From positions 7,852,001 to 7,916,000 of the forward strand of contig NZ_CP022685.1 in assembly GCF_002556545.1 (NCBI RefSeq): 64,000 bases of DNA. Reading direction: 5' to 3'. This document shows positions 1,584 through 19,842 of the stretch, piece by piece. Position numbers and translations under genes: made by a program. Origin of the DNA: Streptomyces formicae. Its GTDB lineage: Bacteria > Actinomycetota > Actinomycetes > Streptomycetales > Streptomycetaceae. Positions within the stretch are counted from its first letter, which is position 1. The number at the start of each line of letters is the position of its first letter. The notes under the pieces were generated by a model. That model was not told where the DNA came from and made no database searches. It saw only the letters and a list, made by a program, of their open reading frames with translations.

Positions 1584-1782
1584 TGCGTCCCTTCCCTGGC
1601 TGGTCGGTGGTGTCGGCGAACTGCTCGGTGCGGCCGGACAGGAGAGTGGCGTCGATCAGGCCGTCCAGGTCGTCCTTGAACGACTGGTTCGGGCCCGGGG
1701 GACGGTCTGCCGTCGCGCCCGGATCCGCGTCGGCGGAGCGCTGGGTCGCGGAGTGCTGCGTCGCGAAGTGCGGGTGCGTCAT
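1576..1782 (-). CDS. Small 68-aa protein of unknown function
   Basis: I do not recognise this protein. It begins at ATG 1782 with GGAGGA seven bases upstream, and its stop overlaps the patatin-like start by eight bases. The first 35 residues are polar, rich in His, Thr, Gln and Pro, and probably disordered. Residues 36-52 (SFKDDLDGLIDATLL) could form an amphipathic helix, followed by a polar tail. There is no Cys and only one Ser/Thr-rich stretch, so a lanthipeptide precursor is not obvious. As first gene of a tightly coupled operon controlled by two operator half-elements, it is likely real. It could be a partner or scaffold for the patatin-like protein, or a precursor peptide of an unknown type. 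Confidence 0.6.
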   Translation of the reverse strand: MTHPHFATQHSATQRSADADPGATADRPPGPNQSFKDDLDGLIDATLLSGRTEQFADTTDQPGKGRND

Positions 1783-1927
1783 GGCGTCCTCCAAGCAGGG
1801 GAGAGCTGACGTCGGGAACGTTAGCACGACCGTCCGTTCACTTTTCTGGTCGATGCGGGGAATCAATATGAGCGAACGGTCGTGCTAACATCTCGGCATT
1901 CCTGATCATCTGGATGGAGGGCGTGGG
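1783..1927. promoter_or_regulatory. Divergent control region with paired TetR-type operators
   Basis: Two 21-base elements face each other here: 1820-1840 (GTTAGCACGACCGTCCGTTCA) and 1869-1889 in the opposite orientation. They match at 19 of 21 positions. They are separated by 28 bases and lie between the leftward operon starting at 1782 and hydrolase A starting at 1928. The same core recurs upstream of the TetR gene, the acyl-AMP ligase gene and hydrolase B, so the TetR protein encoded at 3645-4307 is the likely ligand-responsive binder. No -35/-10 pair is certain. Confidence 0.75.
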
Positions 1928-3561: not shown

Positions 3562-3597
3562 CCCCGCGCCGCGGGGCCCCCGGCCCCGCCCATGAAC

Positions 3598-3644
3598 GCG
3601 CCGTGCGAGGGCCCGTCACCCCCGGGCGGACCCTCGCACGGCGC
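3598..3644. terminator. Bidirectional hairpin between convergent genes
   Basis: A perfect 14-bp inverted repeat (GCGCCGTGCGAGGG at 3598-3611 and its complement at 3631-3644) sits between the ends of the enoyl reductase gene and the TetR gene. There is no T-tract, as is common for GC-rich actinobacterial terminators. Confidence 0.75.
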
Positions 3645-4307
3645 CTACGCGCCCGCCGGTCCCTCGACGGACGCGGGCAGCAGCGACGGGTCGGTGGCCA
3701 CGCCGCGCAGCCGGGTCAGGATGGCCGTGGCCGCCTTGTCGTAGCTGGTGAACTCGGAGTGCAGGACGGACTCGGCGTTCGCCATCTCCATGAACGCGAT
3801 CAGCTCGAAGACGAGCTGCGGGATGTCGACGTCCGCGACGATCTCCTCCGTCTGCTGCGCCTCCCAGACGGTCTGCTCCAGATGCGTGGTCCAGTTGGTG
3901 CGGGCCGCGGCGAGGGTGTCGTGCACCTGGCCGGTGCGGGCGTCGTACTCGGCCGACGTGGAGTAGAAGAAGCAGCCGCCGGGGAAGACGCGCTCGCGCG
4001 AGTAGGTGAGCCAGCTGGTGCACACGCACCACAACCGGTTGATGCCCGGCGGGAGTTCGCGGGCGGGCTGGACCACGTGCTGCAGATAGACCTTGATCGC
4101 CGCGCGCACCGTGGCGAGCTGGAGGTCCTCCTTGGAGCCGAACAGGGCGAACACGCCGCTCTTGCTGAGCTTGAGTTCGCCCGCGAGGCGGCCGAGGGAG
4201 AGGCCCTCCAGACCTTCGACCGATGCGACCTGCATGGCGCGTTTGAGGACCAGCTGACGTGTCTGGTTCCCGCGGGCGACCCGTCCGTCGATGTGTGTCG
4301 CTGCCAT
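3645..4307 (-). CDS. TetR-family regulator, probable cluster repressor
   Basis: 220 aa. An N-terminal TetR helix-turn-helix spans about residues 38-60 (LSLGRLAGELKLSKSGVFAL). The larger C-terminal half carries YSRERVFPGGCFF (about 102-114), typical of one TetR ligand-domain subfamily. It is convergent with the enoyl reductase and divergent from the acyl-AMP ligase gene. Two copies of the ACGAYCGTGCG element lie in the intergenic region, and three more lie at the other two divergent promoters of the locus. It therefore probably represses itself and the cluster until an acyl or product ligand binds. The ATG start at 4307 leaves a normal-length N-terminus before the HTH. Confidence 0.88.
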   Translation of the reverse strand: MAATHIDGRVARGNQTRQLVLKRAMQVASVEGLEGLSLGRLAGELKLSKSGVFALFGSKEDLQLATVRAAIKVYLQHVVQPARELPPGINRLWCVCTSWLTYSRERVFPGGCFFYSTSAEYDARTGQVHDTLAAARTNWTTHLEQTVWEAQQTEEIVADVDIPQLVFELIAFMEMANAESVLHSEFTSYDKAATAILTRLRGVATDPSLLPASVEGPAGA

Positions 4308-4480
4308 GGTGGTGCCTACCTATCTCCTGGGCCAGGTGCTCGCGGTGCCCGATAGACGACCAGTGTACCGATTATGTGGACGATCGTGCGGTCAGTGTGT
4401 GAGGATGCAGTAACTGAACGACCGTGCGTGCAGTGAGTTGTCGCGGGTCACGGTGAGTCCATCTCAGTGACGGGGGCCCC
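4308..4480. promoter_or_regulatory. Divergent promoter with two operator copies
   Basis: The 173-base gap between tetR and the acyl-AMP ligase carries ACGATCGTGCG at 4380-4390 and ACGACCGTGCGT at 4418-4429. Both match the core of the elements at 1820, 1869 and 19766. They are 38 bases apart start to start. Placement suits repression of both the regulator and the main biosynthetic operon. Confidence 0.7.
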
Positions 4481-6214
4481 ATGTTCCGCTCGATGGTCGA
4501 TGTCCTCGCGTCCCAGGCGGCGGCGCACCCGGCCAGGACCGCGTTCCGGTTCCTGGCCACCGGGGACGTGGACGACGCCGGAGCGGGCGTGGCGGACGTG
4601 TCGTACGCGGCTCTCGACCGCCGGTCACGGGCCATCGGTGCGGCGCTGCACGAGCGCGGTCTCGCCGGGGCCCGCGCGATCCTGCTCCATCCGCCGGGGC
4701 TCGAATTCATCGCCGCCTATCTGGGCTGCCTCGCGGCCGCGACCGTCGCGGTGCCGGGACTCCCGCCGCAGGGGCGCGTCCTCAAGGCCCGCGCGGTCTC
4801 CCGGATCCGGCGCATGATCGCCGACGCGGACGCCCGGGTGATCCTCGCGACCAAGCCGGTCATCGCCGCGCTCGACGCGATCTCCGAGCACCTCCCCGAA
4901 CTGGACGAGATCACCTGCGTCGCCACCGAGGACATCCCCGACGAGGCCGGGGGATCCTGGCGCGCGAGCGACCTCACCGCCGACTCGATCGCCTTCCTCC
5001 AGTACACCTCGGGGTCCACCTCGGCGCCGCGCGGAGTGATGGTCACCCACGGCAACCTGATGGACAATCAGGTGGTCCTGTCCCGGGGGATGGGCCACAC
5101 GCCCGAGATCGTCGAGGAGTACGGCGGAGAGCTCTACGTCAGCTGGCTGCCCCTCTACCACGACCTCGGACTCATCGCCCCGGTCCTCAACAACCTCTAC
5201 CTGGGCGGCACGTCGACCCTCTTCTCGCCGCTGCACTTCCTGCAGAAGCCCGAGCGCTGGCTGACCGCGCTCTCCCGGTACCGGCCGCACACCAGCGGAG
5301 GACCCAACTTCGCGTACGAACTCTGTCTGCGCGACGCCACCCCCGAACTGCTCGGCCGACTCGACCTGAGCCGCTGGCGGGTGGCGCTCAACGCGGCCGA
5401 GCCACTGCGGGCGGGCACGCTGCGCCGGTTCGCCGAGACCTTCGCCCCCGCCGGGTTCAGGCCCGGCGCCCTGCACCCGGGCTACGGGCTCGCCGAGGCC
5501 ACGCTCATGGTGAGCGGAGGCCCCGTGGGGCAGGAGCCGAGGACGGCCCCCGCGGGCGACGGGGCGGCGGCGGACGGGGAGTGGGTGAGCTGCGGCCCGC
5601 CCGGCGCCGGACTCACCGTCGTGATCGCCGACGCCGCGCGGCGCGCGGAGTGCCCCGAGGGCGAGGTGGGCGAGGTCTGGGTGGCCGGCGCGAGCGTCAC
5701 CCAGGGCTACTGGCGCAACGCGCGGGCGACCCGCGAGGTCTTCGGCGCGTCGCTCGCGGACGGCAGAGGCGGCTTCCTGCGCACGGGCGACCTGGGGTTC
5801 ATGCGGGACGGCGAGCTGTATGTCACCGGGCGGCAGAAGGACCTCCTGGTGATCGACGGAAGGAACCACTACCCGCAGGACATCGAACTGACCGTGGAGA
5901 GTGCGCATCCGGCGGTGCGGGCGGGGTGTGTGGCGGCGTTCTCGGTGGCGGACGAGGGAGACGCCACGGCGGGGGAGCGGCCGGTGGTCGTCGCCGAGGT
6001 GGCCGCGGCGGACGCCTCGGCCGTCGGGGCGGGGTGGCACGGCGAGGCCGAGGCGGCGATCCGCGGCGCGATCGGCCGCGCCCACGGCCTGGCGCTCGCG
6101 GCGGTCGTCCTGATCGAGCCGGGCACCGTCCCCAAGACGTCCAGCGGCAAGATCCAGCGGGCGGCCGCGCGTGCGGCGTACCTGGGAGGGACGCTCGCGG
6201 CCGTCGGCCCGTAG
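4481..6214 (+). CDS. Fatty acyl-AMP ligase (FAAL)
   Basis: 577-aa adenylate-forming enzyme that activates a fatty acid with ATP and loads it on an acyl carrier protein, here most likely the N-terminal ACP of the PKS that follows. Motifs in order: P-loop YTSGSTSAPRGVMVTH from Tyr175, WLPLYHDLGLI, SGGPNFAYELC (a FAAL hallmark), GYGLAEATL, TGDLGFM, GRQKDLLVIDGRNHYPQDIE and the C-terminal catalytic Lys in PKTSSGKIQR. WLPxYHDxGLI plus SGGPNFAYxLC separates FAAL from acyl-CoA synthetases. Length matches the family. It heads the main rightward operon downstream of two operator copies; the PKS starts 71 bases after its stop. A second FAAL begins at 302 on the other strand, so two different acids may be used. 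Confidence 0.93.
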   Translation: MFRSMVDVLASQAAAHPARTAFRFLATGDVDDAGAGVADVSYAALDRRSRAIGAALHERGLAGARAILLHPPGLEFIAAYLGCLAAATVAVPGLPPQGRVLKARAVSRIRRMIADADARVILATKPVIAALDAISEHLPELDEITCVATEDIPDEAGGSWRASDLTADSIAFLQYTSGSTSAPRGVMVTHGNLMDNQVVLSRGMGHTPEIVEEYGGELYVSWLPLYHDLGLIAPVLNNLYLGGTSTLFSPLHFLQKPERWLTALSRYRPHTSGGPNFAYELCLRDATPELLGRLDLSRWRVALNAAEPLRAGTLRRFAETFAPAGFRPGALHPGYGLAEATLMVSGGPVGQEPRTAPAGDGAAADGEWVSCGPPGAGLTVVIADAARRAECPEGEVGEVWVAGASVTQGYWRNARATREVFGASLADGRGGFLRTGDLGFMRDGELYVTGRQKDLLVIDGRNHYPQDIELTVESAHPAVRAGCVAAFSVADEGDATAGERPVVVAEVAAADASAVGAGWHGEAEAAIRGAIGRAHGLALAAVVLIEPGTVPKTSSGKIQRAAARAAYLGGTLAAVGP

Positions 6215-6285
6215 GGAACGAGGCCCGGCAGGGCGCGAGGAAGACAGCAGACACCCGTGACCGAGCCCGCGGAGACGTTGCCCCG

Positions 6286-9200
6286 ATGACTGGCAAGCAC
6301 CTGAAGAAGCCCGGCGACTCCTCGGCCGCCGCGATCCGGGAGTGGCTGGTGGACGCCGTCGCCCGTACCGCCGGAATCGACCCCGAGCAGGTCACGACCG
6401 ACCGCCCGCTCGCCGAACTCGGTCTGGGATCGCGTGACTTGGTGGCACTGGGCGGGCGCCTGTCCGACCTGCTGGGCAGGCCGCTCGCGCCGACGCTGGC
6501 GTACGACCACCCGACGATCGGGGAGTTGGCGGACGCGGTGACCTCGGGCGGTGCCACGGCGCCCGCGCCCGCTCCGGAGGCCGTCAGGGCGGCCGTCGCC
6601 GCCGACGACGTGGCGATCGTCTCGATGGCCTGCCGCTTCCCCGGCGCCGACGACCCCGGGGAGCTGTGGCGGCTGCTCGCCGACGGCGTGGACGCGGTGT
6701 CCGACGTCCCCGCGGGCCGCTGGGACGCGGCGGCGCTGTACGACGCGGACCCGGAGGCCAGGGGCAGGGCGTACTCGCTGCGCGGTGGATTCCTCGACGG
6801 CATCGACCGCTTCGACGCCGCGTTCTTCGGGATCTCGCCGCAGGAGGCCGCCGCGATGGACCCCCAGCAGCGGCTGCTCCTGCAGACCGCGTGGGAGGCG
6901 ATCGAGCGGGCGGGAATGCTTCCCGACGCGCTCCGGGGCAGTGCCACCGGGGTGTACGTCGGCCTCTTCGACAGCGGCTACCTGGGCGCCGCCGCGCTGG
7001 ACCAGTTGGACGGGTACGTCGCCACGGGCACGTCGGCGAGTGTGGCCTCCGGGCGGATCGCGTACTCCCTGGACCTGCGGGGACCCGCCGTGACCGTCGA
7101 CACGGCGTGTTCCTCCTCGCTGGTCGCCCTGCACCTGGCGGCCCAGGCGGTGCGCGAGGGCACGTGTGACCTCGCGCTCGCGGGCGGCGCGACGCTGCTC
7201 CTGAGCCCGCGCACACATGTGGAGTTCAGCAGGCTGCGCGGCATGTCGAGGTCGGGGCGGTGCGGCCCGTTCTCCGCGGGGGCGGACGGCGCGGTGTGGG
7301 GCGAGGGCTGCGGTCTCGTCCTGCTCAAGCGGCTGAGCGACGCGCGGCGCGACGGTGACCGGGTGCTCGCGGTCGTCAAGGGTTCCGCCGTCAACCAGGA
7401 CGGCCGCAGCCAAGGGCTGAGCGCGCCGAGCGGCCCGGCGCAGGAGCGCGTGGTGCGGGCGGCCCTCGACGCGGCGGGCCTGCGCCCCGGCGACCTCGAC
7501 TACGTGGAGGCGCACGGCACCGGCACGACGCTGGGCGACCCCGTCGAAGGCGGGGCGCTTGCCCGGGTGTTCGGCCCCGACCGGCCGGTCGACCGGCCCC
7601 TCGCGGTGGGCTCGCTGAAGTCGAACATCGGCCACACGCAGGCCGCCGCGGGCATCGGCGGCGTCATCAAGACGGTCCTCGCCCTGCGCCACGAACTCCT
7701 GCCCGCGTCCCTGCACGCCGAGCACCCGACCGACCGGATCGACTGGGCGGGCGGCGGCCTGCAACTGTGCGACGAGCCCCGCCCCTGGCCACGCGGCCCG
7801 CGCACGCGCCGCGCGGGGGTGAGCGCGTTCGGGGTCAGCGGGACGAATGCGCATGTGGTGGTGGAGGAGGCGCCGGGGGCGTTGCCTGAGGGGCCGGAGG
7901 TGTGCCTTGAGGTGGCGGGGGTGTCGCCCGAGGCGCCGGAGGTGTGCCTTGAGGGTCCGGAGGTGTGCCTTGAGGGGGCGGGGGTGTCGCCTGAGGGTGC
8001 GGGGGTGTGCCTTGAGGTGGCGGGGGCGTCGCCCGAGGTGCCGGGGGTGTCGCCTGAGGTGCCGGAGGTGTTCCCTGAGGGGCCCGAGGTGTCCTCTGAG
8101 GGGTCGGGTGATTCGGCCGTTCCGGGTGTCTCCACCCTCTTCCCCCTCTCCGCCCGCACCCCCGAAGCCCTGCGCGGTCAGGCCCGGCGGCTGAGCCGCG
8201 CCCTGGAGGCCGAGCCCCGGGTGTCGCTCGCCGCCGTCGCCCGGACGCTCGCGCATCGGCGTACCCCCTTCGAGCGGCGGGCCGTCGTCGTGGCCAGGGA
8301 CCGTGCGGAGCTGCTGCACGGGCTGGACGCCCTGGCCACGGGGCGGTCCGCCCCCGAGATCGTTATCGGGCCCGAACAGGTGCGGCCGCAGGGCAAGTTG
8401 GCCTTCGTGTTCCCCGGGCAGGGGACCCAGTGGGCCGGGATGGCGCGGGACCTGCTGGATCGTTCCCCGCTGTTCGGGGACGAGATCGACCGCTGTGACG
8501 CGGCCCTGCGCCCGCACACCGGCTGGTCCGTCGGCGCCGTGCTGCGCGGTGAAGGCGGTGCGCCCCCGCTGGAGCGGGTCGACGTCGTCCAACCGGCGCT
8601 GTTCGCCGTCATGGTGGCGCTCGCCGCCGTGTGGCGCTCGCGCGGCGTGCGTCCGGAGGGCGTGGTCGGGCACAGCCAGGGCGAGGTCGCGGCCGCCTGC
8701 GTCTCCGGCGCGCTCGGACTCAACGACGCCGCCGCCGTGGTCGCGTTCCGGGCCCGCGCCCTGCGCGCCGTCGCGGGGAGCGGTGCGATGGCGATGGTGG
8801 CGCTGGGGCGCGAAGAGGTCGAGGAACGGCTCGCCGCGCACGGCGGACGGCTCTCCGTCGCCGCTCTCAACAGCCGTACGGCCACCGTGGTGTCGGGCGA
8901 TCCCGAGCCGCTCGACGCGCTCCTGGCGGACCTGGAACGCGAGCGCGTCTTCGTACGCAGGATGGGCATCGACTACGCCTCGCACAGCGCTCAGGTCGAG
9001 CCGGTGCGGGAGACCATGCTGACGGATCTGGCGGGGATCACGGCGTACCCCTCCTCGGTCGCCTGGTACTCGACGGTGACCGGGGAACCGGTCGCCGAGG
9101 AGCTGGAGTCCGAGTACTGGTTCCGGAACCTGCGCGAGCCCGTACGCTACGCCGACACCGTCGAGCGGATGGCGGCCGACGGCTACCGGTACTTCGTCGA

Positions 9201-12200
9201 ACTCGGCCCGCACCCCGCCCTGTTGACGGCGACCCGCGCTGTCGGCGAGGAGGCGGGGTACGACCTGGTGGCCGTTGGCTCCCTGCGGCGCGACGAGGAC
9301 GGACCCACCTGCCTGGACCGGGCCGCGGCCGAACTGCACACCGTGGGACGGCAGATCACCTGGCGACGCCTCGTGCCCGACGGCGACGCGGCGGAGCTGC
9401 CGACCTACGCGTGGGACGCGCGGCGCCACTGGACCGACGCGGCCGACGCGGCGGGCCGGGGCGGAACGCCGTTCGTGGCCACGCACATCGAATCCAGCGA
9501 CGAACCGGACCAGCACCTCTTCGAGGCGCGCCTCGACCTCGGCGACAGCAGGTACTCCTATCTCGCCGACCACCGGATCACGGGGGAGGCGTGGCTGCCC
9601 GCGGCCGCTTTCGTGGAGATGGCGCTCGAAGCGGTGGCCGAGGCGCGGGCGGCGGCGTCCGGTGACGCTTCGGTCGCGGGCCAGCGCGGTGGGCACGATG
9701 GTGGGCCCATCGAGCTCGCCGACGTCCGGTTCGAGCGGCCGCTCCCGCTCGCGGCGGACGCTTCCGTACGGCTTCAGATGGTCCTGCGGCCCCCCGACGC
9801 GGACGGCACACGCGAGTTCGGCATCTCCGCGAGGACGACGCGCACGCCGTGGCAGCGTCACGTCACGGGGCGAGTCCACACGGGAGAGACCACGGAGGCC
9901 GAGTACGCGGCGGACGCCGAGGGCACCGAACCCGTCGACCTCCCCGAGCTCTACGCCGCCCTCGCCGCACTCGGCATCGACTACGGTCCCGCGTTCCGCG
10001 GCCTGGAGCAGGCGTCGCGCGGTGCGTCGCGGTCGTCAGGGCGCCTGCGGAAGACCCCGCGCGCGGGGCACCTGCTGCACCCGGCCCTGCTCGACGCCGC
10101 CTTCCACACCGCCGCGCTCCCGAAGGACGCGCCCTCGGGACGGGCGTTCGTACCGGCGGGGATCGGGCGCCTGCGGTTCACGGGCCTGCGCACCGACCCG
10201 GCCCGCGTCACGTGCGTACTGCGCGGCACTGCCGGGGACCGGGACCGGCACCGGGACGGATACTCGCTCGACCTGCGGTTGCTGGACGACCAGGAACGCC
10301 TCGTCCTCGCCGTCGAAGGGCTCGAACTGGCCGCGCTGTCCCCCCAGGGCGGCACCCTCTTCGAGGTGTGCTGGCAGCCGCGACCGCCCGCCGAGGAGCG
10401 GCGGGCGGCAGGGACCGGCGGCAGCTGGCTGATCCTCGCCGACGACTCCGGTGTCGGGGACGAGATCGCCCGACGGCTGGGGTCGACACCCCACGTGGTC
10501 GTACGCAAGGGCGAGAAGTACGCCGCCGAGGGCCCTGGACGCTTCACGATCGACCACGGGGATCCGGCTCACCTGGAACGCCTGCTCGACGAGGCGTCGG
10601 CGTTCGCCGCGGGCCCGCCGGACCGGGTGGTGCAGCTGTTCGGCCTGGACGCTCCCGTGCTCGTGTCCCCGGCGCGGGCCGAGACGGTCGCGGAGGCCGC
10701 CGCGCTGTGCTGCGTCAGCTCGCTGAACCTCGTGCGGGCACTCTCCGGCAGGACTGGCGGCGGCGCGCCCCGGCTCTACCTGGTCGGCCGTGGCAGCCAG
10801 GCCGTCGTCGACAGCACGGACGTCACCCACCCGCAGCAGGCGCTCGCCTGGGGCTTCGGCGCCTCGGTGGCCCAGGAACACCCGGAACTCGCCCTCACCC
10901 TCATCGACCTGCCGCCCGCCGGGGAAGCGGAGGCGCTGTGGGCCGAGCTGTGCGGGGCGGACGACGAACGAATGGTCGCGCTGCGCCCCACCGGCCGGTT
11001 CGTCCCGCGTCTCGTGCGGGCCGACGCTCCCGGAGGGGGAGTCACGGGTGGGGGCGGACCTGGTGCGGAGGTGCCCGGACGCGTCCGTCCCGACGGCGGC
11101 TACCTGATCACCGGGGGACTCGGCGGCCTCGGCAGGGTCGTCGCCGAACGCCTCGTACGCAACGGCGCCCGCCACCTCGCCCTCCTGGCCCGCCGCGCGC
11201 CCGACGCGGACGCGGCCCGCTGGATCGCCGGGCTGCGCGACGGCGGCGTCGCCGTGCACGTCGTACAGGCCGACGTCACCGACCGCGAAGCGCTGCGCGC
11301 CGCGCTCGACGCCCTGCGCGGCGAGCTGCCCCCGATCACGGGAATCGTGCACGCCGCGGGCGTCCTCGACGACGCGACGCTGCCGAACCTGACGCCCGAA
11401 CGCGTCGCGCGGGTCCTCGCGCCCAAGGTGCTCGGCACGGTCCTGCTCACCGAGTTGGTGCCCGAGGCGGAGTCGCTGGTGCTCTTCTCCTCGGCCGCGG
11501 GCCTGCTCGGCTCTGCGGGTCAGAGTCCGTACGGCGCGGCGAACGCGTTCATGGACGCGTGGGCGCACCACCTCGCCCGCACGGGGCGGCGCGCGCTCAG
11601 TCTCGACTGGGGCGTGTGGGCGGACGTCGGCCTGGTCGCGGGCTCCGCGGCGCGGACCGCCGCGACCGGCCGTTCGGGCCTTCTCGCCCTCTCGCCCGAG
11701 GAGGGCGGCGACCTCTTCGAACGGGCGCTGGCCGCGGGCCATCGTCAGCTCGTGCCGCTCGCCCTCGATTGGGAGGCGTTCGCGCGCGACCCGGACCAGG
11801 CGCGGTCACGGCCGCTCCTGCACGGCCTCGTCCCGGTCCCGACGGACGCGCCCGGCGCCGACGGCCTCGCCGCCCGGGTGCTCGCCGCCGCGACGGAGGA
11901 GGAGCGGACCGCCCTGCTCGAAGCGCACGTACGACGGCGGATCGCCGATGTCACCGGCGGTGAGGCGGGCGGCCTCACGCCGACGACCGGGCTGAAGGAA
12001 CTCGGGCTCGACTCCCTGATGACGGTCAGGCTGCGCAACCTCCTCGGCCGCGACCTGGGCGTCGAACTGTCGGCGTCTGCGGTCTTCGCGGCGGACGACG
12101 TCGGGGCGCTTGCGCGGGAGCTGCGCACCACGTTGGAGAGTGGGGGCGGGGGAGGGGTGCCAGTCTCGGCCCGTATAGGTACGGGTACGGGTACTGGCTC

Positions 12201-15189
12201 CGGCGACACCGTGGTGCCCGATGCCGATGCCGATGCCGATGCCGATGCCGATGTTGATGTCGAACTGCGCCCCGCCACCCGCGACGTGCTGCGCCTGCTC
12301 CGCGCGGCGCAGCACGGCACACCCAGCGCGGCGCACTCCCTCGGCCTGGCGCTCCGGCTCACCGAGCCGACCACCCGGGAACGGCTGACGGACATCCTCA
12401 CGCGGCTCGCGGGACGGCATGCCGCGTTGCGCACCGGCGTCGTCAACGGCCCCGACAACGAGCGCCGGTTGAGTACGGAACGGGCTCCGGAGGCACCGCT
12501 GCTGCGGTGGTCCGACCTCGACGACACCCGCGACGGCGGCGACGCCCACGAGGGTGAGGGCGAGGACGCCCCCGGCCCGCGACTCGCCGCGCTCCTGGAA
12601 CCGCCCTTCGACCTGGCGACCGCACCGCTCTGGCGGTTCGAGCTGCTCGACCGGGGAGACGCGGGGCAGACCCTGCTCTTCGGCGCCCACCACAGCGTGA
12701 GCGACCTGCAGTCGCTGCTCCTGGTGGCGGCCGAGATCGATGCCGAACTCGTCGGCACGTGGCTCGGCGACGAGGTGTCCGACCGAGACATCGACCTGCT
12801 CGGCCTGGCCCAGCCCGCGAAGCCGTCGGGCGGCCAGGGCCCGGGTGACGACTCTGCCGCCCGGCGCGCGGAGTTCGACGGCAGTCGGCGCCTCGATCTG
12901 ACACTGACTCAAGAACGGCCTGCCGCACGGTCGTTTCGGGCAGGAAGCCTGACCCTTGAGCTGCCCGACGGGCTCATGGAGCGCGTCGCGGAGCGGGCGC
13001 GGCAGCTCGCGATCACCCCGGCCGCCTTCTGCCTCGGTGTGCTCACGGTGCACCTCGCCAGACTGCGGCAGCGGGACCGCTTCGTGCTTGCGGTCCCGGT
13101 GGACACCCGTATCCACGTCGACGCGTTCGACGCGGTCGGCTTCTTCGGGGTGCCGGTGCCGTTCCCCGCGCAGGCGGCACCGGGCGAGCGCGTCGACGAG
13201 GTGCTGCGCCGCACCGACGGGAGGCTCGCGCGGATCCTGGCGAAGGGCGCCATGTTCTCCGACTCCCTCGCGGCGCTCGCCGCCCAGGGGCTGCACCGGG
13301 AGAACGCGCCACTGGTCGAGGTCTACTTCAACTACGTACGCTCCGCCGCGAAGTTCGAGCGGCTGGAAGTCCTCCCCGCGGGGACCGGGTACTCCGATCT
13401 CGACCTCATGATCATCATGATGCCGGACGCCGGTCTGGTGCGCTTCGACCACAACGCCGACATCATGGACGGGACGGCTTGCGCCGAACTGGCCGCCGGA
13501 TTCCTGCAGTTGCTCGCGACGGCAGCGGACGATCCGACCGCCCCCGCCCGGCCGGGCCCGTCGCCGGTCACCGCACCCGGCACGCTCGCACTCGCCGCCA
13601 CCTTCGCGCTCGGCAACCTCCCGCTGCTGTGCGAGGCGGCCCTCGCGGAGGAGGTGGCGGACGGCCCGGCCGCGAGCGTGACCGTCGCCGAGGCGCCCTA
13701 CCACCACGTACTGGCCGCCCTGAAGGACCCCTCCGGTGTCTTCGGCCGGCCTTCGACGGCGCCCGGCGTCGTCCTGCTCCGGGCGGCCGATCTGGAGCGG
13801 TTCGGCCCTGTGACGGACGAGCTGCGCACCGAACTCGGCGCGGAACTCGCCGCAACCCTCAGCCAGTTGCCCGGTCGGGCCGGTCGTCCGGTCATCGTCG
13901 GATTCCTGCCCGCCGCGCGCCACGACGTACGGCACGAGCGCTGGGAGCGGGACGTGGCCGAGCGGCTGACCGGCGTGCCGGGCATCGCCGTGCTGCGCGC
14001 CGACGACTGGACCCGGCACCACGAGGTCGGTGAGTGGTTCGACGAGAGGACCGAGGAGCTGGCGCACCTGCCCTTCACCCCGGAGTTCCAGGCGGCCGTG
14101 GCCCTCACCCTGGCCGAGGTCGTGCGCGCGGCGGGACGCACACCGCCGAAGGTGATCGCGGTCGACGGCGACGAGACGCTGTGGGGCGGCATCGCGGGTG
14201 AACACGGCCCGGACCGCGTGGACGTGGGCGGGGCGAGGGAGCTGCTGGCCCGGCGGCTGCTCCAGTGGCGGGCGGCGGGCACTCTGCTCGTTCTCGTCAG
14301 CAACAACGACGAGGAGACCGTACGCGCGGTCCTCGCGCGCCCCGACAGCGTGCTGCGCGCGGAGCACTTCAGCGTGATCTCCGCCGAGTGGGGCCGCAAG
14401 GCCGACCGGATCGCGGCGGCGGCAGGGGCGTTGGGGCTCGGGCTCGACAGTTTCCTCTTCCTCGACGACAACCCCGTCGAGATCGCCGCCGTGCGCTCCG
14501 CGCTGCCCGATGTCCTCTCCGTGACCTGCCCGCCCGTCGACGAACTCGACGCGTTCCTGCGCCGGTTGTGGCCGCTGGTCCCGGTGGCGGCCACCGCGGA
14601 GGACTCCCTGCGGGCGGACTTCTACCGGCAGGAGAAGGACCGTGACGCGGCCCGCGAAGCGGCAGGGTTCGAGGAGTTCCTCGACGGCCTCGAACTCGAC
14701 GTCACGGTGCGGCCGCTGACCGACGAGGACTCCGAGCGCGCCGCCCAACTCGTACGCCGCACCAACCAGTTCACGCTGCGCGCGCGATCCGCCGACGGCG
14801 GTGACCTGGAGCGGTGGCGGCAGCGGGGTGAGGTGTGGACGGCGTCGGCCCGCGACCGCTTCGGCGACTACGGCCAGATCGGTCTGCTCGCGGTCCGCGC
14901 GGAGGGCGGCCGACTCGACGTACTGGCCTGGACGCTCAGTTGCCGGGCCCTCGGCCGAGGAGTGGAGGAGCGGCTGCTCCAGTGGCTGGCGGGCCGGGCC
15001 GAGGAACTGGGCTGCGCGACGGTACGGCTGACGGCGGAGCGCACCCCGCGCAACGCACCGGTGCGACGCCTTGTCGCCGCGCTCGGCGGCTCCCCGGACG
15101 CGCCGGACGACCCGGACGCCCCGCACCTTGAGGTCGAGACGACCCCGGAGCTTCTGCGCGCCTTCCGGTCCTGGAGGCGCACGCCATGA
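6286..15189 (+). CDS. Hybrid PKS: ACP-KS-AT-DH-KR-ACP-C-FkbH
   Basis: 2967-aa multidomain enzyme. ACP1 (Ser49 in LGLGSRDLV); KS (Cys275, His410, His450); repetitive KS-AT linker (about 527-610); AT (Ser797 in GHSQGE, YASH 897-900, predicting methylmalonyl-CoA); DH (His1096 in HRITGEAWLP, Asp1270); no ER; KR (GGLGGLG about 1610, LDD 1694-1696 suggesting B-type, Tyr1749, Asn1753); ACP2 (Ser1910 in LGLDSLMTV); Asp-Ala linker; condensation domain (HHSVSD, His2136 as base); FkbH-like unit with a long N-terminal part (about 2435-2600), HAD domain (DGDETLWGG from Asp2627, DDNP 2727-2730) and GNAT-like tail. The FAAL upstream would prime ACP1. FkbH proteins load a glyceryl unit from 1,3-bisphosphoglycerate on an ACP; no ACP follows inside this protein, so the acceptor is probably the ACP of the next protein. 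Here the HAD motif is DGDET, not the usual DxDNT. The start ATG has GGAGA 10-11 bases upstream. Confidence 0.92.
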   Translation: MTGKHLKKPGDSSAAAIREWLVDAVARTAGIDPEQVTTDRPLAELGLGSRDLVALGGRLSDLLGRPLAPTLAYDHPTIGELADAVTSGGATAPAPAPEAVRAAVAADDVAIVSMACRFPGADDPGELWRLLADGVDAVSDVPAGRWDAAALYDADPEARGRAYSLRGGFLDGIDRFDAAFFGISPQEAAAMDPQQRLLLQTAWEAIERAGMLPDALRGSATGVYVGLFDSGYLGAAALDQLDGYVATGTSASVASGRIAYSLDLRGPAVTVDTACSSSLVALHLAAQAVREGTCDLALAGGATLLLSPRTHVEFSRLRGMSRSGRCGPFSAGADGAVWGEGCGLVLLKRLSDARRDGDRVLAVVKGSAVNQDGRSQGLSAPSGPAQERVVRAALDAAGLRPGDLDYVEAHGTGTTLGDPVEGGALARVFGPDRPVDRPLAVGSLKSNIGHTQAAAGIGGVIKTVLALRHELLPASLHAEHPTDRIDWAGGGLQLCDEPRPWPRGPRTRRAGVSAFGVSGTNAHVVVEEAPGALPEGPEVCLEVAGVSPEAPEVCLEGPEVCLEGAGVSPEGAGVCLEVAGASPEVPGVSPEVPEVFPEGPEVSSEGSGDSAVPGVSTLFPLSARTPEALRGQARRLSRALEAEPRVSLAAVARTLAHRRTPFERRAVVVARDRAELLHGLDALATGRSAPEIVIGPEQVRPQGKLAFVFPGQGTQWAGMARDLLDRSPLFGDEIDRCDAALRPHTGWSVGAVLRGEGGAPPLERVDVVQPALFAVMVALAAVWRSRGVRPEGVVGHSQGEVAAACVSGALGLNDAAAVVAFRARALRAVAGSGAMAMVALGREEVEERLAAHGGRLSVAALNSRTATVVSGDPEPLDALLADLERERVFVRRMGIDYASHSAQVEPVRETMLTDLAGITAYPSSVAWYSTVTGEPVAEELESEYWFRNLREPVRYADTVERMAADGYRYFVELGPHPALLTATRAVGEEAGYDLVAVGSLRRDEDGPTCLDRAAAELHTVGRQITWRRLVPDGDAAELPTYAWDARRHWTDAADAAGRGGTPFVATHIESSDEPDQHLFEARLDLGDSRYSYLADHRITGEAWLPAAAFVEMALEAVAEARAAASGDASVAGQRGGHDGGPIELADVRFERPLPLAADASVRLQMVLRPPDADGTREFGISARTTRTPWQRHVTGRVHTGETTEAEYAADAEGTEPVDLPELYAALAALGIDYGPAFRGLEQASRGASRSSGRLRKTPRAGHLLHPALLDAAFHTAALPKDAPSGRAFVPAGIGRLRFTGLRTDPARVTCVLRGTAGDRDRHRDGYSLDLRLLDDQERLVLAVEGLELAALSPQGGTLFEVCWQPRPPAEERRAAGTGGSWLILADDSGVGDEIARRLGSTPHVVVRKGEKYAAEGPGRFTIDHGDPAHLERLLDEASAFAAGPPDRVVQLFGLDAPVLVSPARAETVAEAAALCCVSSLNLVRALSGRTGGGAPRLYLVGRGSQAVVDSTDVTHPQQALAWGFGASVAQEHPELALTLIDLPPAGEAEALWAELCGADDERMVALRPTGRFVPRLVRADAPGGGVTGGGGPGAEVPGRVRPDGGYLITGGLGGLGRVVAERLVRNGARHLALLARRAPDADAARWIAGLRDGGVAVHVVQADVTDREALRAALDALRGELPPITGIVHAAGVLDDATLPNLTPERVARVLAPKVLGTVLLTELVPEAESLVLFSSAAGLLGSAGQSPYGAANAFMDAWAHHLARTGRRALSLDWGVWADVGLVAGSAARTAATGRSGLLALSPEEGGDLFERALAAGHRQLVPLALDWEAFARDPDQARSRPLLHGLVPVPTDAPGADGLAARVLAAATEEERTALLEAHVRRRIADVTGGEAGGLTPTTGLKELGLDSLMTVRLRNLLGRDLGVELSASAVFAADDVGALARELRTTLESGGGGGVPVSARIGTGTGTGSGDTVVPDADADADADADVDVELRPATRDVLRLLRAAQHGTPSAAHSLGLALRLTEPTTRERLTDILTRLAGRHAALRTGVVNGPDNERRLSTERAPEAPLLRWSDLDDTRDGGDAHEGEGEDAPGPRLAALLEPPFDLATAPLWRFELLDRGDAGQTLLFGAHHSVSDLQSLLLVAAEIDAELVGTWLGDEVSDRDIDLLGLAQPAKPSGGQGPGDDSAARRAEFDGSRRLDLTLTQERPAARSFRAGSLTLELPDGLMERVAERARQLAITPAAFCLGVLTVHLARLRQRDRFVLAVPVDTRIHVDAFDAVGFFGVPVPFPAQAAPGERVDEVLRRTDGRLARILAKGAMFSDSLAALAAQGLHRENAPLVEVYFNYVRSAAKFERLEVLPAGTGYSDLDLMIIMMPDAGLVRFDHNADIMDGTACAELAAGFLQLLATAADDPTAPARPGPSPVTAPGTLALAATFALGNLPLLCEAALAEEVADGPAASVTVAEAPYHHVLAALKDPSGVFGRPSTAPGVVLLRAADLERFGPVTDELRTELGAELAATLSQLPGRAGRPVIVGFLPAARHDVRHERWERDVAERLTGVPGIAVLRADDWTRHHEVGEWFDERTEELAHLPFTPEFQAAVALTLAEVVRAAGRTPPKVIAVDGDETLWGGIAGEHGPDRVDVGGARELLARRLLQWRAAGTLLVLVSNNDEETVRAVLARPDSVLRAEHFSVISAEWGRKADRIAAAAGALGLGLDSFLFLDDNPVEIAAVRSALPDVLSVTCPPVDELDAFLRRLWPLVPVAATAEDSLRADFYRQEKDRDAAREAAGFEEFLDGLELDVTVRPLTDEDSERAAQLVRRTNQFTLRARSADGGDLERWRQRGEVWTASARDRFGDYGQIGLLAVRAEGGRLDVLAWTLSCRALGRGVEERLLQWLAGRAEELGCATVRLTAERTPRNAPVRRLVAALGGSPDAPDDPDAPHLEVETTPELLRAFRSWRRTP
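7868..8106 (+). repeat. In-frame minisatellite in the KS-AT linker
   Basis: About 240 bases of short degenerate repeats built on gaggtgtgccttgag and gcgggggtgtcgcctgag. They encode alternating blocks such as PEVCLEG and GVSPE. Unit lengths are multiples of three, so copy-number change keeps the frame. This lengthens the normally compact KS-AT linker. Confidence 0.8.
12170..12257 (+). repeat. Simple repeats in the ACP-C linker
   Basis: A run of ggtacg-type units (12177-12195) encodes Gly-Thr repeats. It is followed by six or so gatgcc hexamers (12220-12256) encoding a poly Asp-Ala stretch. Together they form a flexible acidic linker between ACP2 and the condensation domain. Confidence 0.85.
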
Positions 15190-15232
15190 GAGGCGCAGGC
15201 ACAGGCACAGGCACTTCGAGGAGAGGCACCCC

Positions 15233-17638
15233 ATGGGGGACGTGAGCAACGAGGATCCGGCAGCGCACCGACCGGCCGAGCCCGGGCCGCGTGCGATCGG
15301 GCGGCGTACGACCGGCGAGTCCATCGAGCGGGGCGGCGGGCGTCTGGGCGTGGCCGACCTGTTGGCCAAGGTCGGCGCGGCGACCAGGGGCCCGGTGACC
15401 GGGGACCGGGTGACCGAGGGCCCGGCGACCGAGGGCCGGGTGACAGAGGGCACGGCGGCCACCGATCCGGTGGATTCCGCCGCCACCGCACCGGGCTCCC
15501 CACCCGCCCCTCCCCGCGACGCGGAAGCCCTCGCCCACGCCATCGCCTCCATCGCCGCCCGCTTCCTGCCGGGCGTACCCATGGGGCCCGACACGGACTT
15601 CTTCGACGCGGGCGGCACGTCCGTCGACGCGGTGGAGCTCGTCGCCGCGCTCGCCCGCGAGGTGGATCTGGACGTCACCCTGGACGACGTGTTCGCCGAC
15701 GCCAGGCCGCGCAGGCTCGCCGAGCGGACCCTCCCGTACGCTCCGGAAGCGGGCTCCGGCTTCCTGCCGGTGCTCGCCACCCGGGCAGCGGATCCCGCGC
15801 GATCCGGCGCTCCCGACGAAGACCTCGACCTCGTCCTCGCCGACCTCGCCCGCGCCGACGCCCTGCCCTGGGCACGCCGCCCCGAGCCCGCCGCGCCGCG
15901 CCGGATCCTGCTGACCGGAGCGACCGGTTTCCTCGGCGGGCACATGCTGCTCGACCTGCTGCGGCACAGCGACGCGCACGTGGTGTGCCTGGTGCGCGCG
16001 GCCGACGAGGAGGCGGGGCTGAAGCGGCTCGGCGCCGCGCTGACCGGGTTCGCGCTGCCGTGGTCCGCGGAGATCCGCAGGCGCGTGACCGTCCTGCCGG
16101 GCGATCTGCGCAAGCCGCGGCTCGGGCTGACGGACGATCAGTGGGGCGCGCTGGCCGACGAGGTGGACTCCGTCGTCGGGGTGGGCGCCGCCGTGGACTT
16201 CCTGCGCGGCTACGCGTCGCTGCGGCAGAGCAATGTGGCGGGACCGCTCACCCTCGCCGAACTGGCCGCGACGGGACGGCCCAAGCCCCTGCACCACATC
16301 TCCTCGATCGCGGTCTTCAACGAGGTCGGCATCGAGTCGATGGGCGAGGACGACCCCGTCGCGCACATCGACGCCCTTGCCGCCGGGTACGACAAGTCGA
16401 AGTGGGCCGCCGAGGCCGCGCTGCGCAGGGCCCGCGAACACGGACTCGTGGTCACCCTGCTGCGCCCCGGCGGCATCGGCGGGCACACCAGGACCGGCGC
16501 CAACAACCCGCAGGACCTCAGCAGCGGCATGATGTCGGCGTTCAGCCGCTTCCGTACGGTGCCGGGCTTCCGCTACATCAACGCGGCCCCGGTGGACTGG
16601 GTGAGCCGGATCGCGGTGGCCGTGGTGTGCGAGCCGAGCGCCTGGGGCTACAACTACAACCTGACGGGCGTGCCGAGCGACCTGTCGGACGTGGTGCGCG
16701 ACATGAAGTTCGCCGGCATGAACGTCCGCGTCCAGGACTGGGACGAGTGGCGGCAGGACGTCGTACGCCGCCTGAAGGACGATCCCGTGCCCGAACTCGA
16801 CTTCCTCGCACGGGTGTTGGCGAGCCCGACCGCGAGGAAGCTCTGCGAGGCGACCCTGACGGGTCCCGCGGTGACCGGCGAGCGCACCGAGGCGTTCATC
16901 GCCGAGTGGAAGCTGCCGCCCGCCGCGCGGTACGGCATGCGGGAGCAGACCGAGGCGTTCGAGCGGCTCGCGCGGGACGGCCTGGCCCGGCTGCCCGACC
17001 GGTCCGACCCGCCCTACCTGTGGTTCCCCGAGACGATGGAGGGGGCGCTCGGACCGGTCGGCGGGAGCGCCGACAGCAGGTGCACCCTGGCGCTCACCCT
17101 GTCGATCGCGAGCATGTACCAACTGGTGCGCGAGCGCCGCGTGGACGTCAGGGGCGAGCTCTCCTGCCCGCTGCTGCACCCGGCGCCCCTCGTGGTGGAG
17201 CACGGCGACGTGTGGGTCCGCCCCGAGGAGGGCATCCCGCTGGAGCACGGCATGCGCCACCCGCTGCTGCGCTACCGGCTGCGCCTGCGCGACGCCGACG
17301 GGCGCGAATGGTGGCTGGAGGGACGGAAGTTCGCCAGGGCGCGGCGTGACCTGTGGCGCCAGACACGCGCGCTGAGCGTACGGCTCGGACGAGTCGACCA
17401 GCCCGCGACGCTGGCCGGTGAGGTCGTGGTGCCCTCCGACAGCTACGTGCGCGACCAGGTCGACGGCATCCGGGTCGACCCGCGCCTTTCGGGCCAGGAG
17501 AAGCGCGTCGCCAAACTGACCTGGCTCGCCTGGTTCGGCCTGGAGATCGGCCGCGGACTGCTCGGCCCGTTCGCCCGCGTCGGCGCCGACCTGCTCGACC
17601 TGCGCGGGACCACGACACCGACGGAGCGCACCCGATGA
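15233..17638 (+). CDS. ACP-thioester reductase with extra C-terminal domain
   Basis: 801 aa. Residues 1-95 are a low-complexity leader with VTEGxATEGR-type repeats. An ACP follows with Ser130 in DAGGTSVDAVEL. Then a short-chain-dehydrogenase-type thioester reductase: ILLTGATGFLGG (225-236), HISSIAVFNE, and catalytic Tyr386/Lys390 in YDKSK. Such domains release ACP-bound acyl chains as aldehydes or alcohols. After about residue 590 comes a 200-residue domain (from YLWFPETMEG) that I cannot name; it resembles, from memory, the beta-rich part between the oxidoreductase and hydrolase halves of actinobacterial GMC oxidoreductase-esterase fusions. The ATG start is 43 bases after the PKS stop, after GAGGAG. 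The ACP here is the likely acceptor for the FkbH-derived unit. The stop overlaps the next gene (ATGA). Confidence 0.88.
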   Translation: MGDVSNEDPAAHRPAEPGPRAIGRRTTGESIERGGGRLGVADLLAKVGAATRGPVTGDRVTEGPATEGRVTEGTAATDPVDSAATAPGSPPAPPRDAEALAHAIASIAARFLPGVPMGPDTDFFDAGGTSVDAVELVAALAREVDLDVTLDDVFADARPRRLAERTLPYAPEAGSGFLPVLATRAADPARSGAPDEDLDLVLADLARADALPWARRPEPAAPRRILLTGATGFLGGHMLLDLLRHSDAHVVCLVRAADEEAGLKRLGAALTGFALPWSAEIRRRVTVLPGDLRKPRLGLTDDQWGALADEVDSVVGVGAAVDFLRGYASLRQSNVAGPLTLAELAATGRPKPLHHISSIAVFNEVGIESMGEDDPVAHIDALAAGYDKSKWAAEAALRRAREHGLVVTLLRPGGIGGHTRTGANNPQDLSSGMMSAFSRFRTVPGFRYINAAPVDWVSRIAVAVVCEPSAWGYNYNLTGVPSDLSDVVRDMKFAGMNVRVQDWDEWRQDVVRRLKDDPVPELDFLARVLASPTARKLCEATLTGPAVTGERTEAFIAEWKLPPAARYGMREQTEAFERLARDGLARLPDRSDPPYLWFPETMEGALGPVGGSADSRCTLALTLSIASMYQLVRERRVDVRGELSCPLLHPAPLVVEHGDVWVRPEEGIPLEHGMRHPLLRYRLRLRDADGREWWLEGRKFARARRDLWRQTRALSVRLGRVDQPATLAGEVVVPSDSYVRDQVDGIRVDPRLSGQEKRVAKLTWLAWFGLEIGRGLLGPFARVGADLLDLRGTTTPTERTR

Positions 17639-18759
17639 CCACCCGACGCACCACCACCCGGCGACCCACCCCGAGGCGCACCGCCACCCTGCGGCCGCTG
17701 TACGCACGTCTCGACGGCGCCACCGTCGAGGAGATCCCCTTCCACGCGGGCGACGGCACCCGCATCGGCCTCACCCGCGTCAGCAGGGGCCATCAGGATC
17801 GCCCCGCGGTGCTCCTGCTGCACGGGCACACCGCCTCGTCCGACATGTTCGTGCAGCCCGAGACCCGCAACCTCGTCGAGGCGCTGCTCGACGAGGGGTA
17901 CGAACCGTGGCTGCTCGACTGGCGGGGAAGCTGCCGCCTGCCGTACAACGAGACCGGCCGCCGGTACACGTACGACGACGTCGCCCTGTACGACATCCCC
18001 GCCGCCGTGTCGTACATCAGACAACGCCTCGACGGGCGGCCGCTGTTCGCGGTGGCGCACTGCATCGGCGCGCTCTCCCTGTCGATGAGCATGACCGCGG
18101 GCCTGGTGCCGGGCCTCGCGGGCGTCGTCGCGCAGGGCGTGTTCCTGACGCCCAAGCTCGCCGGGCGCACGTCGCTGAAGATGACCGTGGCCGGTGAGCT
18201 GTTCCGCTCCCGCTTCGACCACATCCCGGTGGACTTCCGCAAGGTCGGCTTCCGGTCGCGGTACACCGCGCTGTTCGCCCTCGCCTCCCGAGGTGCGGAC
18301 TGCCCCGACCCCACCTGCCAGATCCTGTGCAACTCGGCCTGGGGCGTGGGCGCTTCGCTCTACGTGCACGACAACCTGTCGGACGCCACCCACGACCGCC
18401 TCGCCGAGCTGCTCGGCCCCGCGCCGCTGTGGATCCTGCCGCACCTGCGCCGCGTCAGCCTGGCCCGCAGCGTGGTGCGCTGGAACCAGGACGACCACCG
18501 CTACCGCGCGCTCCCGGAGAACGCCCTGGACGCGGCGGGCAGGATCGACTGCCCGGTGCTGCTGATCTCCGGCAGCGAGAACGGGATGTGGCTGGACTCG
18601 CAGAAGCTCTGCCACGAGGTACTCGCCTCCCGGCAGCCGCAGTTGGACGTGCGGTACGCGGAGATCCCCGGGTACGGCCACTTCGACGCCTTCGTCGGCA
18701 GGGGCGCCGCGCTCGACGTGTTCGGGCACATCCTGGAGTTCCTCGGCGAGCGGGTGTGA
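17635..18759 (+). CDS. Alpha/beta-hydrolase with Cys nucleophile
   Basis: 374 aa. An Arg/Thr-rich leader is followed by an alpha/beta-hydrolase fold: LLLHGHTASSD near 61-70, the nucleophile elbow VAHCIGA with Cys143 where most family members have Ser, and a C-terminal His in GYGHFDAF. A G/A-x-C-x-G elbow is known from PHA synthases and dienelactone hydrolases, and points to acyl transfer or slow thioester chemistry. YDDVALYDIPAAVSYI resembles, from memory, the esterase half of actinobacterial GMC oxidoreductase fusions. Its start overlaps the reductase stop by four bases (ATGA). Together with the unusual C-terminal domain of the reductase it looks like a split two-part module. It is the last gene of the FAAL-PKS operon. 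Confidence 0.85.
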   Translation: MTTRRTTTRRPTPRRTATLRPLYARLDGATVEEIPFHAGDGTRIGLTRVSRGHQDRPAVLLLHGHTASSDMFVQPETRNLVEALLDEGYEPWLLDWRGSCRLPYNETGRRYTYDDVALYDIPAAVSYIRQRLDGRPLFAVAHCIGALSLSMSMTAGLVPGLAGVVAQGVFLTPKLAGRTSLKMTVAGELFRSRFDHIPVDFRKVGFRSRYTALFALASRGADCPDPTCQILCNSAWGVGASLYVHDNLSDATHDRLAELLGPAPLWILPHLRRVSLARSVVRWNQDDHRYRALPENALDAAGRIDCPVLLISGSENGMWLDSQKLCHEVLASRQPQLDVRYAEIPGYGHFDAFVGRGAALDVFGHILEFLGERV

Positions 18760-18811
18760 GGGTGCGCGGGAACCCCGGCGCCGCCGGGGCCGCCGGGGTT
18801 CCCGCGCACCC
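18760..18811. terminator. Perfect 21-bp-stem hairpin
   Basis: Arms 18760-18780 and 18791-18811 are exact complements with a 10-base loop. It starts directly after the hydrolase stop and ends 11 bases before the end of the convergent hydrolase B, so it should stop both transcripts. Confidence 0.85.
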
Positions 18812-18821
18812 GGGTCCCGGC

Positions 18822-19724
18822 TCAGTCCACCGCGGGGACCGCGTCGGCCCGGTCCTCGGGACGGTCGCTCGCGCCGGGCCCGTGCTCCACGAAGTCCAGT
18901 ACGGCGCGCACCACTTCGGGGTCGCCGAGGATCTTGCGGTGCCCGAGCCCCTGGGTGGTGACCAGCCGCGCCCGGTCGCCGAAGGCCGCGGCGATCGCCC
19001 GCCCCTGCCCGACCCCGATCCGGGCGTCGTCCTCGTCGTGCACCACGAGGACCGGTGCCGTGATGACCTCGGTGGCGTACCTGACGGAGAACGGCATGCG
19101 GTCGGCGGGCACGCCGGGGAAGAGGTCCTTGCCGATCCGGACGAGCAACTCGTCCTTCAGGGACGGGCGGAGCTTGAGCTCGGAGACGTACTCGTCGACC
19201 AGGTACTCGAAGTCGCAGACCCCGCTGATGGCCACGATCCGCTCCGCCTCCACGCCCTTGGTGAGCGCGTGGAACGAGCCGAGCGCGCCGAGGGAGTGCG
19301 CGATGAGGGCCTCGAACGTGCCGTACTGGTCGTGGAGTTCGGTGAGGATCTTCTGGTATTCGATGATGGTGGTGCTGCGGCCCGTGCCGTCGCCGTGTCC
19401 CGGCGCGTCGAAGGTGACGACGCTGTAGCCCCGGTCGAGCAGGCCGGAGATGAAGTCGCTGAAGCGCGAGCCGCGCGACTGCCAGCCGTGCACGAGCAGG
19501 ACGGGGCGCTCCCCGGTGCCCCACCGGTAGGTCACCGCGGACTTGCCGTTGACGCGGACGCGCCCGAGGTGCGCCGCCTCGAACAGCTCGCGCTCCGACG
19601 AGCGCATCTTGCTGCGGGCCAGCGGCATGTGGAACAGGGCGTAGGCGCCGGTGCCCGCGAGCCGCCCCGAGACGCGGGAGACGGTGTTGAGGGTCGTACT
19701 CACAACTGCCGCGGTGGGGTCCAT
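18822..19724 (-). CDS. Alpha/beta-hydrolase B (paralogue of A)
   Basis: 300-aa hydrolase. VLLVHGWQSRGSRF (75-88), nucleophile AHSLG with Ser144, acidic cluster HDEDD at 229-233, and His262 in LGHRKIL. It shares with hydrolase A (1928-2785) the block NGKSAVTYRWGTGERPVLLVHGW and much of the cap spacing, so the two come from one duplication. The start chosen is ATG 19724, with GAGGAG eight bases upstream; upstream in-frame sequence runs through an operator and is unlikely to be translated. An operator lies at 19766-19785, 42 bases before the start, which places the gene in the same TetR regulon. The N-terminal 40 residues lack a signal peptide. Confidence 0.87.
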   Translation of the reverse strand: MDPTAAVVSTTLNTVSRVSGRLAGTGAYALFHMPLARSKMRSSERELFEAAHLGRVRVNGKSAVTYRWGTGERPVLLVHGWQSRGSRFSDFISGLLDRGYSVVTFDAPGHGDGTGRSTTIIEYQKILTELHDQYGTFEALIAHSLGALGSFHALTKGVEAERIVAISGVCDFEYLVDEYVSELKLRPSLKDELLVRIGKDLFPGVPADRMPFSVRYATEVITAPVLVVHDEDDARIGVGQGRAIAAAFGDRARLVTTQGLGHRKILGDPEVVRAVLDFVEHGPGASDRPEDRADAVPAVD

Positions 19725-19842
19725 GTCCAGTACTCCTCGGTCGGCGGTAGCAGGAGCGTGGTATATTAGCACGATCGTCCGTGCTTTTAGATGTTGTTCC
19801 GTCCGAGGGGCCACGGGCCCCAGCGCTCATGAGGGGAACGCC
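19725..19842. promoter_or_regulatory. Divergent promoter with operator
   Basis: TTAGCACGATCGTCCGTGCT at 19766-19785 is the most symmetrical of the five cluster operators: AGCACG and CGTGCT form the outer arms of an 18-bp dyad. It sits between hydrolase B and the small monooxygenase-like gene and probably controls both directions. Confidence 0.72.

Follow-up and report, generated by a model that had tools for sequence, protein, structure and literature searches.

A one-module foxicin-type polyketide operon in Streptomyces formicae that may release an acylated glyceraldehyde or acylglycerol

The closest described system is the foxicin (fox) cluster of Streptomyces diastatochromogenes Tu6028, published in 2017 and given, in the accessible sections of that paper, as [A]-[ACP-(KS-AT-DH-KR-ACP)x2-C-FkbH]-[PCP-TE]-esterase (PMC5318452). 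The same sections state that disruption of foxBII abolishes foxicin production, that FoxBII carries two extension modules in all strains of the paper, and that an extra PKS/NRPS lies upstream of the fox cluster in three strains; the carriers named include S. regalis, S. curacoi, S. mangrovisoli, S. bicolor and S. bingchenggensis (PMC5318452). Foxicin A, the only family product found in our literature search, is presented there as a polyketide on the amide of an aminoquinone, a structure without a glyceryl ester (PMC5318452).

Outside this family, as far as the accessible text goes, the vioprolide starter is FAAL-ACP-C-HAD-T, its FkbH part being said to activate 3-phosphoglycerate, and both vioprolide and corramycin are described as having the order FAAL-ACP-C-FkbH-T and an ester to glycerate (PMC10099666, PMC8949500). 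For malleicyprol, the available part of the description states that the C domain of BurF forms an ester and that its Red domain yields an aldehyde (PMC12304814).

We analysed a window, the whole stretch of 64,000 nucleotides from the 9.61 Mb chromosome of Streptomyces formicae, that contains an operon with the following features.

4481 to 6214, forward strand: fatty acyl-AMP ligase (FAAL), FoxBI-like; ligase-model scores and 65% identity to the S. curacoi homologue (G317)
6286 to 15189, forward strand: PKS gene, FoxBII-like, one module; ACP-KS-AT-DH-KR-ACP-C by Pfam and FkbH by TIGR01686
12298 to 13560, forward strand: condensation (C) domain, motif HHSVSDL
13558 to 15150, forward strand: FkbH part with N-terminal extension, HAD (DGDET) and GNAT-like (SCR) parts; TIGR01686
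15233 to 17638, forward strand: ACP-thioester reductase-CTD protein, FoxBIII-like; PP-binding, TIGR01746 and R-domain structures in Foldseek
16841 to 17635, forward strand: C-terminal domain (CTD) without assigned family, small beta-barrel core; Pfam, search for short relatives and AF2 model
17635 to 18759, forward strand: alpha/beta hydrolase in the position of FoxEI; profile match and conserved place after the reductase

The domain order and coordinates claimed by the sequence-only reading (FAAL; ACP-KS-AT-DH-KR-ACP-C-FkbH; ACP-TR) were confirmed by Pfam, TIGR01686, TIGR01746 and motifs. Its claim that an A domain is lacking also held, with no ER and no A domain matched by Pfam from the FAAL to the end of the reductase. 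The FAAL scored 414 bits against the fatty-acid-AMP ligase model, short of that model's own cut-off of 775, and 140 bits against the amino-acid adenylation model. Translation of the 2967 aa PKS protein revealed the KS motif TACSSS, the AT motifs GHSQG/RVDVVQ/YASH, the DH motif HxxxGxxxxP, the KR motifs LDD and SxYxN, the C motif HHSVSDL, the FkbH motifs DGDET and SCR, and the ACP serines; the reductase protein has the TR motifs GxxGxxG and YDKSK. We concluded that the catalytic motifs of both proteins are intact as translated. The AT motifs are of the methylmalonyl type, and because the AT bears this signature, an alpha-methyl product is expected. The domain order is not a matter of chance, since it recurs in related genomes.

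The order of FoxBI (A-like), FoxBII (ACP..KR-ACP-C-FkbH), FoxBIII and the FoxEI esterase is that of the window, where the four homologues are adjacent and match the loci of S. curacoi (G317) and S. regalis (G097). Carrier species from the foxicin paper recur among the relatives of the window proteins, although the strains may differ. The published clusters have two modules, whereas the window PKS has one KS, and we concluded from these comparisons that the operon belongs to the foxicin family in a one-module form. Among the ORFs scanned in the window, none was recognised as a counterpart of foxGI-GIII; a DeoC/LacD-type aldolase is encoded some 18 kb upstream of the FAAL. The accessible text of the foxicin paper assigns FoxBIII as PCP-TE and FoxBI as an A domain (PMC5318452), whereas the homologues here are an ACP-thioester reductase and a FAAL. 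The annotation of the third protein in both S. regalis and S. curacoi reads thioester reductase domain-containing protein, and ACP-TR-CTD stands downstream of C-FkbH. Judging from the homologues in these species, the most likely assignment is reductase for FoxBIII and FAAL for FoxBI.

In a protein search the C-FkbH region had 439 relatives with E no higher than 0.001; our counts cover the best 120 of them, including the window's own. Two KS hits were present in 99 of these; a further 16, counting the window's own, were one-module proteins of 2856-3050 aa, and the remaining five had other lengths or fewer KS. Relative to the 99 two-module proteins, the window KS was a median 78% identical to module 1 and 68% to module 2, and the AT a median 73% and 48%, respectively. 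The opposite held for the DH (54% to module 2 versus 28% to module 1, where a module 1 DH was seen in 32 of the 99) and for the KR (74% to module 2 versus 45% to module 1). The identity ranges for modules 1 and 2 did not overlap for any of the four domains. Thus KS-AT resembles module 1 and DH-KR resembles module 2, so that the two forms differ by a DH-KR-ACP-KS-AT block whose junction falls between AT and DH. A natural merge or split of modules in the AT-DH linker might account for the one-module form, and either form could be the older.

Family membership, the intact motifs and the conserved linkage are what the sequences establish; each chemical step that follows is proposed. With moderate confidence, we favor a one-module foxicin-type line in which an acyl chain is esterified to glyceryl-ACP and released as an acyl-glyceraldehyde (or acylglycerol). 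The FAAL would activate a carboxylic acid and load it onto the first ACP, and KS, AT, KR and DH would add one methylmalonyl unit to leave a 2-methyl-2-enoyl chain on the second ACP, which an InhA-like reductase might reduce in trans. FkbH would take a glyceryl unit from (bis)phosphoglycerate and charge the ACP of the reductase protein, the C domain would acylate a hydroxyl of the glyceryl thioester, and the reductase would free the acylated glyceraldehyde, or an acylglycerol after a second reduction. The conserved hydrolase and further enzymes would process the released compound. FAAL loading and a methylmalonyl-type module, as read earlier, have precedents.

The FkbH part scored 367 bits against TIGR01686 (cut-off 147) and carries the marks of the glyceryl-loading type: the model match, the HAD DxDxT motif and the cysteine of the GNAT part. 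It comprises three parts (N-terminal extension, HAD and GNAT-like). The names given to the outer two draw in part on the malleicyprol paper (PMC12304814). Elsewhere in the genome, a second FkbH gene lies beside other PKS genes (G000:C1:1474141-1475118), and its HAD part is 41% identical to the window's.

The C domain has the C fold with HHxxxD expected of an ester-forming domain, and its closest sequence matches in the PDB are ordinary and mixed C domains. Its two pieces are the weakest two of the 79 PF00668 matches in the genome (68 bits combined; the other 77 score at least 89), a low score that shows divergence and not ester specificity. Being the most divergent such match in its genome, the domain might be a scaffold only, with glyceryl-ACP reduced directly to glyceraldehyde and the polyketide freed by a hydrolase; we consider this very improbable, given that HHxxxD is kept in all 120 relatives among the matches listed and that the C domains of the 99 two-module proteins among the best 120 of 439 share 60-70% identity with it. 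Among the same matches listed, the HAD, GNAT-Cys, ACP-Ser and TR motifs were each likewise kept in 120 of 120. C-domain esterification, as the sequence-only reading proposed, has precedents in vioprolide and, within the accessible text, BurF, the choice of ester over amide being read by analogy.

That reading had also called the C-FkbH fusion unusual, which did not stand: the fusion is published for vioprolide, corramycin and foxicin, and the region has 439 relatives, with C and FkbH motifs in all of the best 120. Its chemical steps otherwise have precedents and the motifs are kept, but it had overlooked the foxicin-type operon, the adjoining enoyl reductase gene and the upstream NRPS. As the accessible sources describe them, the vioprolide and corramycin starters share with the window the joint occurrence of FAAL, C and FkbH and the loading of glycerate, and vioprolide also a C-domain ester (PMC10099666, PMC8949500). 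They start a peptide, however, and T comes next in the named order, whereas the C domain of the window follows a PKS module, the carrier sits on the protein encoded downstream, and the line finishes with a reductase.

When C-FkbH fusions were sought beside ACP-thioester reductases in relatives, the cassette C, NEX, HAD, GNAT, ACP, TR, CTD and hydrolase was found complete and in order in 28 of 31 loci, most of which had been picked for encoding TR; L003/G313 and L005/G146 were each counted once and a lone FkbH control was excluded. The other three (L001, G033, G061) are cut by a contig end. The hydrolase follows the reductase in 30 of the 31, and L001 ends before it. Wherever the next carrier after FkbH is visible, it is the ACP on the TR protein; this agrees with the earlier proposal that FkbH charges the next protein's ACP, a pairing deduced from gene order. 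As a check with lower bias, the FkbH part was used as a query against 101 genomes of the genus and gave 16 close places (at least 61% identity, window included) in 15 genomes. Eleven were contiguous with TR, four were cut by contig ends (G001, G033, G061 and, by coordinates only, G081) and one, G063, showed the ACP and then a 100-N scaffold gap. None of the 16 places showed another partner, and the TR family was present in 13 of the 101 genomes at identities of at least 64%. A second lineage with other, often longer PKSs carries the same cassette (G014, G067b, G282b, G196, G280, G180, G175).

The reductase gene runs from an ATG at 15233 to 17638. Its product has the marks of a terminal thioester reductase: a match to TIGR01746 (243 bits, cut-off 213), GxxGxxG, YxxxK and a PP-binding carrier in front; it also matched R-domain structures in Foldseek. 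The reductive release proposed earlier thus has intact TR motifs and a precedent in BurF, with aldehyde or alcohol read by analogy to the accessible description. According to that description, malleicyprol BurF (C-NEX-T-Red) shares with our system an ester-forming C domain with HHxxxDx and reductive release to an aldehyde, but it keeps only the NEX part of FkbH, receives another small unit, and turns a beta-keto substrate into a butenolide (PMC12304814); the likeness is drawn from the published description.

BurF closes its butenolide after reductive release, and a similar course here (ester, reduction, then attack of the acyl alpha carbon on the aldehyde to give a five-membered lactone) is in our view quite improbable. 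The native substrate of BurF is a beta-keto chain, and with substrates lacking the keto group the accessible text reports trapped aldehydes (PMC12304814), whereas the KR and DH motifs of the window are intact. The methylated alpha carbon would also be poorly acidic and would not allow dehydration to a simple butenolide. Given the intact KR and DH, we consider an open product (acyl-glyceraldehyde or acylglycerol) more probable than a butenolide.

The reductase protein ends in a conserved CTD of ~265 aa on which the sequence-only reading was silent. A Pfam scan of this domain gave no family above cut-off. In the AF2 model a predicted barrel core occupies residues 597-735, and confidence is low elsewhere. 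A search among proteins of 146-464 aa found 25 short relatives; 24 are collinear with the ACP-TR protein and are apparently fragments of it, the start lying inside TR in all that are long enough, and the remaining one (P0267) shares only 47 aa with the CTD. The domain occurred in 45 of 392 sampled species of the genus; in a family-level sample, 10 of 150 genomes carried it, and these fell in 3 of 17 genera. Our guess is that the released lipid is its ligand.

The operon is flanked by the following genes and sites.

633 to 1583, reverse strand: patatin-like hydrolase gene, divergent from the enoyl reductase operon; Patatin 20.8 bits, below the cut-off of 27.7; 79% in S. poriferorum
1821 to 1839, forward strand: putative operator TTAGCACGACCGTCCGTTC; pattern count and same place in S. 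poriferorum
1870 to 1888, reverse strand: putative operator, second copy in the same intergenic region as 1821 to 1839; pattern count and S. poriferorum
1928 to 2785, forward strand: alpha/beta hydrolase; Abhydrolase_6 48 bits; 78% in S. poriferorum
2782 to 3561, forward strand: InhA/FabI-type enoyl-ACP reductase; NF005908 440 bits; 94% in S. poriferorum
3645 to 4307, reverse strand: TetR-family regulator between two divergent operons; TetR_C_13 108 bits; 77% in S. poriferorum
18822 to 19814, reverse strand: alpha/beta hydrolase with putative operator in its promoter region; profile match; 66% in S. poriferorum
19766 to 19784, forward strand: putative operator TTAGCACGATCGTCCGTGC; pattern count and S. 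poriferorum

S. poriferorum (L003 = G313) has the same one-module operon and the same flanking genes; in the stretches fetched for the other compared loci, the patatin-like, hydrolase, InhA/FabI, TetR and second-hydrolase flanks were not found. The pattern TTAGCACGAYCGTYCGTKC matched three times in the window (1821, 1870 and 19766) versus a shuffle mean of 0.09, and none of 100 shuffles reached three, but the pattern was written from the three sites themselves and the statistic is thus not independent. Because these sites occur in the same places in S. poriferorum, which has one further copy before the FAAL, 633-19814 is probably a regulon with a putative shared operator that links the PKS operon to the InhA-like reductase gene and the hydrolases. 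The InhA/FabI-type reductase is a second copy, 68% identical to the other in the genome, and may be a trans-acting ER for the enoyl chain or a duplicated fatty-acid/housekeeping enzyme. It is also a possible self-resistance isozyme. Between the two genomes this paralogue is 94% identical, compared with 66-86% for its neighbours.

Left of the window, we located the following genes.

G000:C1:7828636-7835976, ~20 kb upstream of the operon: NRPS, C-A-T-C-A-T-TE
G000:C1:7837591-7839612: 3,4-AHBA gene pair, GriI/BagB-like aldolase and GriH/BagC-like synthase
About window -1730 to -1470 (L133 about 9273-9530), reverse strand: ThiS/SAMP-like protein ending in GG, beside a second FAAL

The second FAAL reaches window position 302, and the region further holds, besides the ThiS/SAMP-like small protein, a weakly thioesterase-like protein, two acyl-CoA dehydrogenases and a SnoaL-like protein. 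The stretch from the NRPS to this FAAL looks like an unsaturated-lipid dipeptide line adjoining the operon. S. poriferorum keeps the NRPS, FAAL, small protein, thioesterase-like and dehydrogenase genes at 68-85% identity, the second dehydrogenase at 58% through a wrong-frame query only; the FabV, KS and 3,4-AHBA (GriI/GriH-like) genes present in between here are absent from its contig. The ThiS/SAMP-like protein (ThiS just above cut-off, SAMP1 below) is 85% identical in S. poriferorum.

The sequence-only reading had considered a partner A domain elsewhere in the cluster. A domains do exist in the upstream NRPS, but they sit with C and PP-binding domains of their own, and so are no evident partner for the PKS C domain. 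Since this NRPS is found ~20 kb upstream, and S. poriferorum has retained it, the acyl-glyceryl unit is perhaps not the end product; the NRPS may extend it, and the final product may combine parts from both. Against the ester reading, the chain of foxicin A is amide-bound without a glyceryl ester, so the C domain may form an amide in foxicin, or the acyl group may be transferred later. In an amide route through the present operon, glyceryl-ACP would become an amino C3 unit by oxidation and transamination, C would form an amide, and an N-acyl amino aldehyde would enter a foxicin-like scaffold. We regard this route as unlikely: it fits the amide linkage of foxicin A given in the accessible text (PMC5318452) and the NRPS and 3,4-AHBA pair upstream in S. 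formicae, yet no aminotransferase family was matched in the part of the ORFs scanned from 630 to 22340, and the S. poriferorum contig lacks the pair while keeping most of the remaining genes.

Elsewhere in the window, a VMAP-C/trypsin protein, an AAA protein and a long TPR protein are encoded at 33879-40932 on the reverse strand, with uncertain ORF starts, and resemble what we take to be a vWA-MoxR-associated conflict system. A methylmalonyl-CoA mutase gene at 54681-56729 on the reverse strand is a possible source of methylmalonyl-CoA.

What is new is the one-module form, the reannotation of the reductase, the extra domain and the probable regulon; the remainder is mostly explained by known families. 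These findings move the likely release step in a widespread and largely silent Streptomyces family from thioesterase to reductase, so that what becomes of the FkbH-loaded C3 unit can be tested directly. The natural pair of one- and two-module synthases, with its clear AT/DH junction, is useful for PKS engineering, and the CTD is an uncharacterised domain to study. More tentatively, about one in nine sampled species (the 45 of 392 that carry the reductase's private CTD) might make acylated glyceraldehydes or glycerols on carrier proteins, bypassing the glycerol-phosphate acyltransferases, with the beta-barrel domain taking up the reactive lipid aldehyde.
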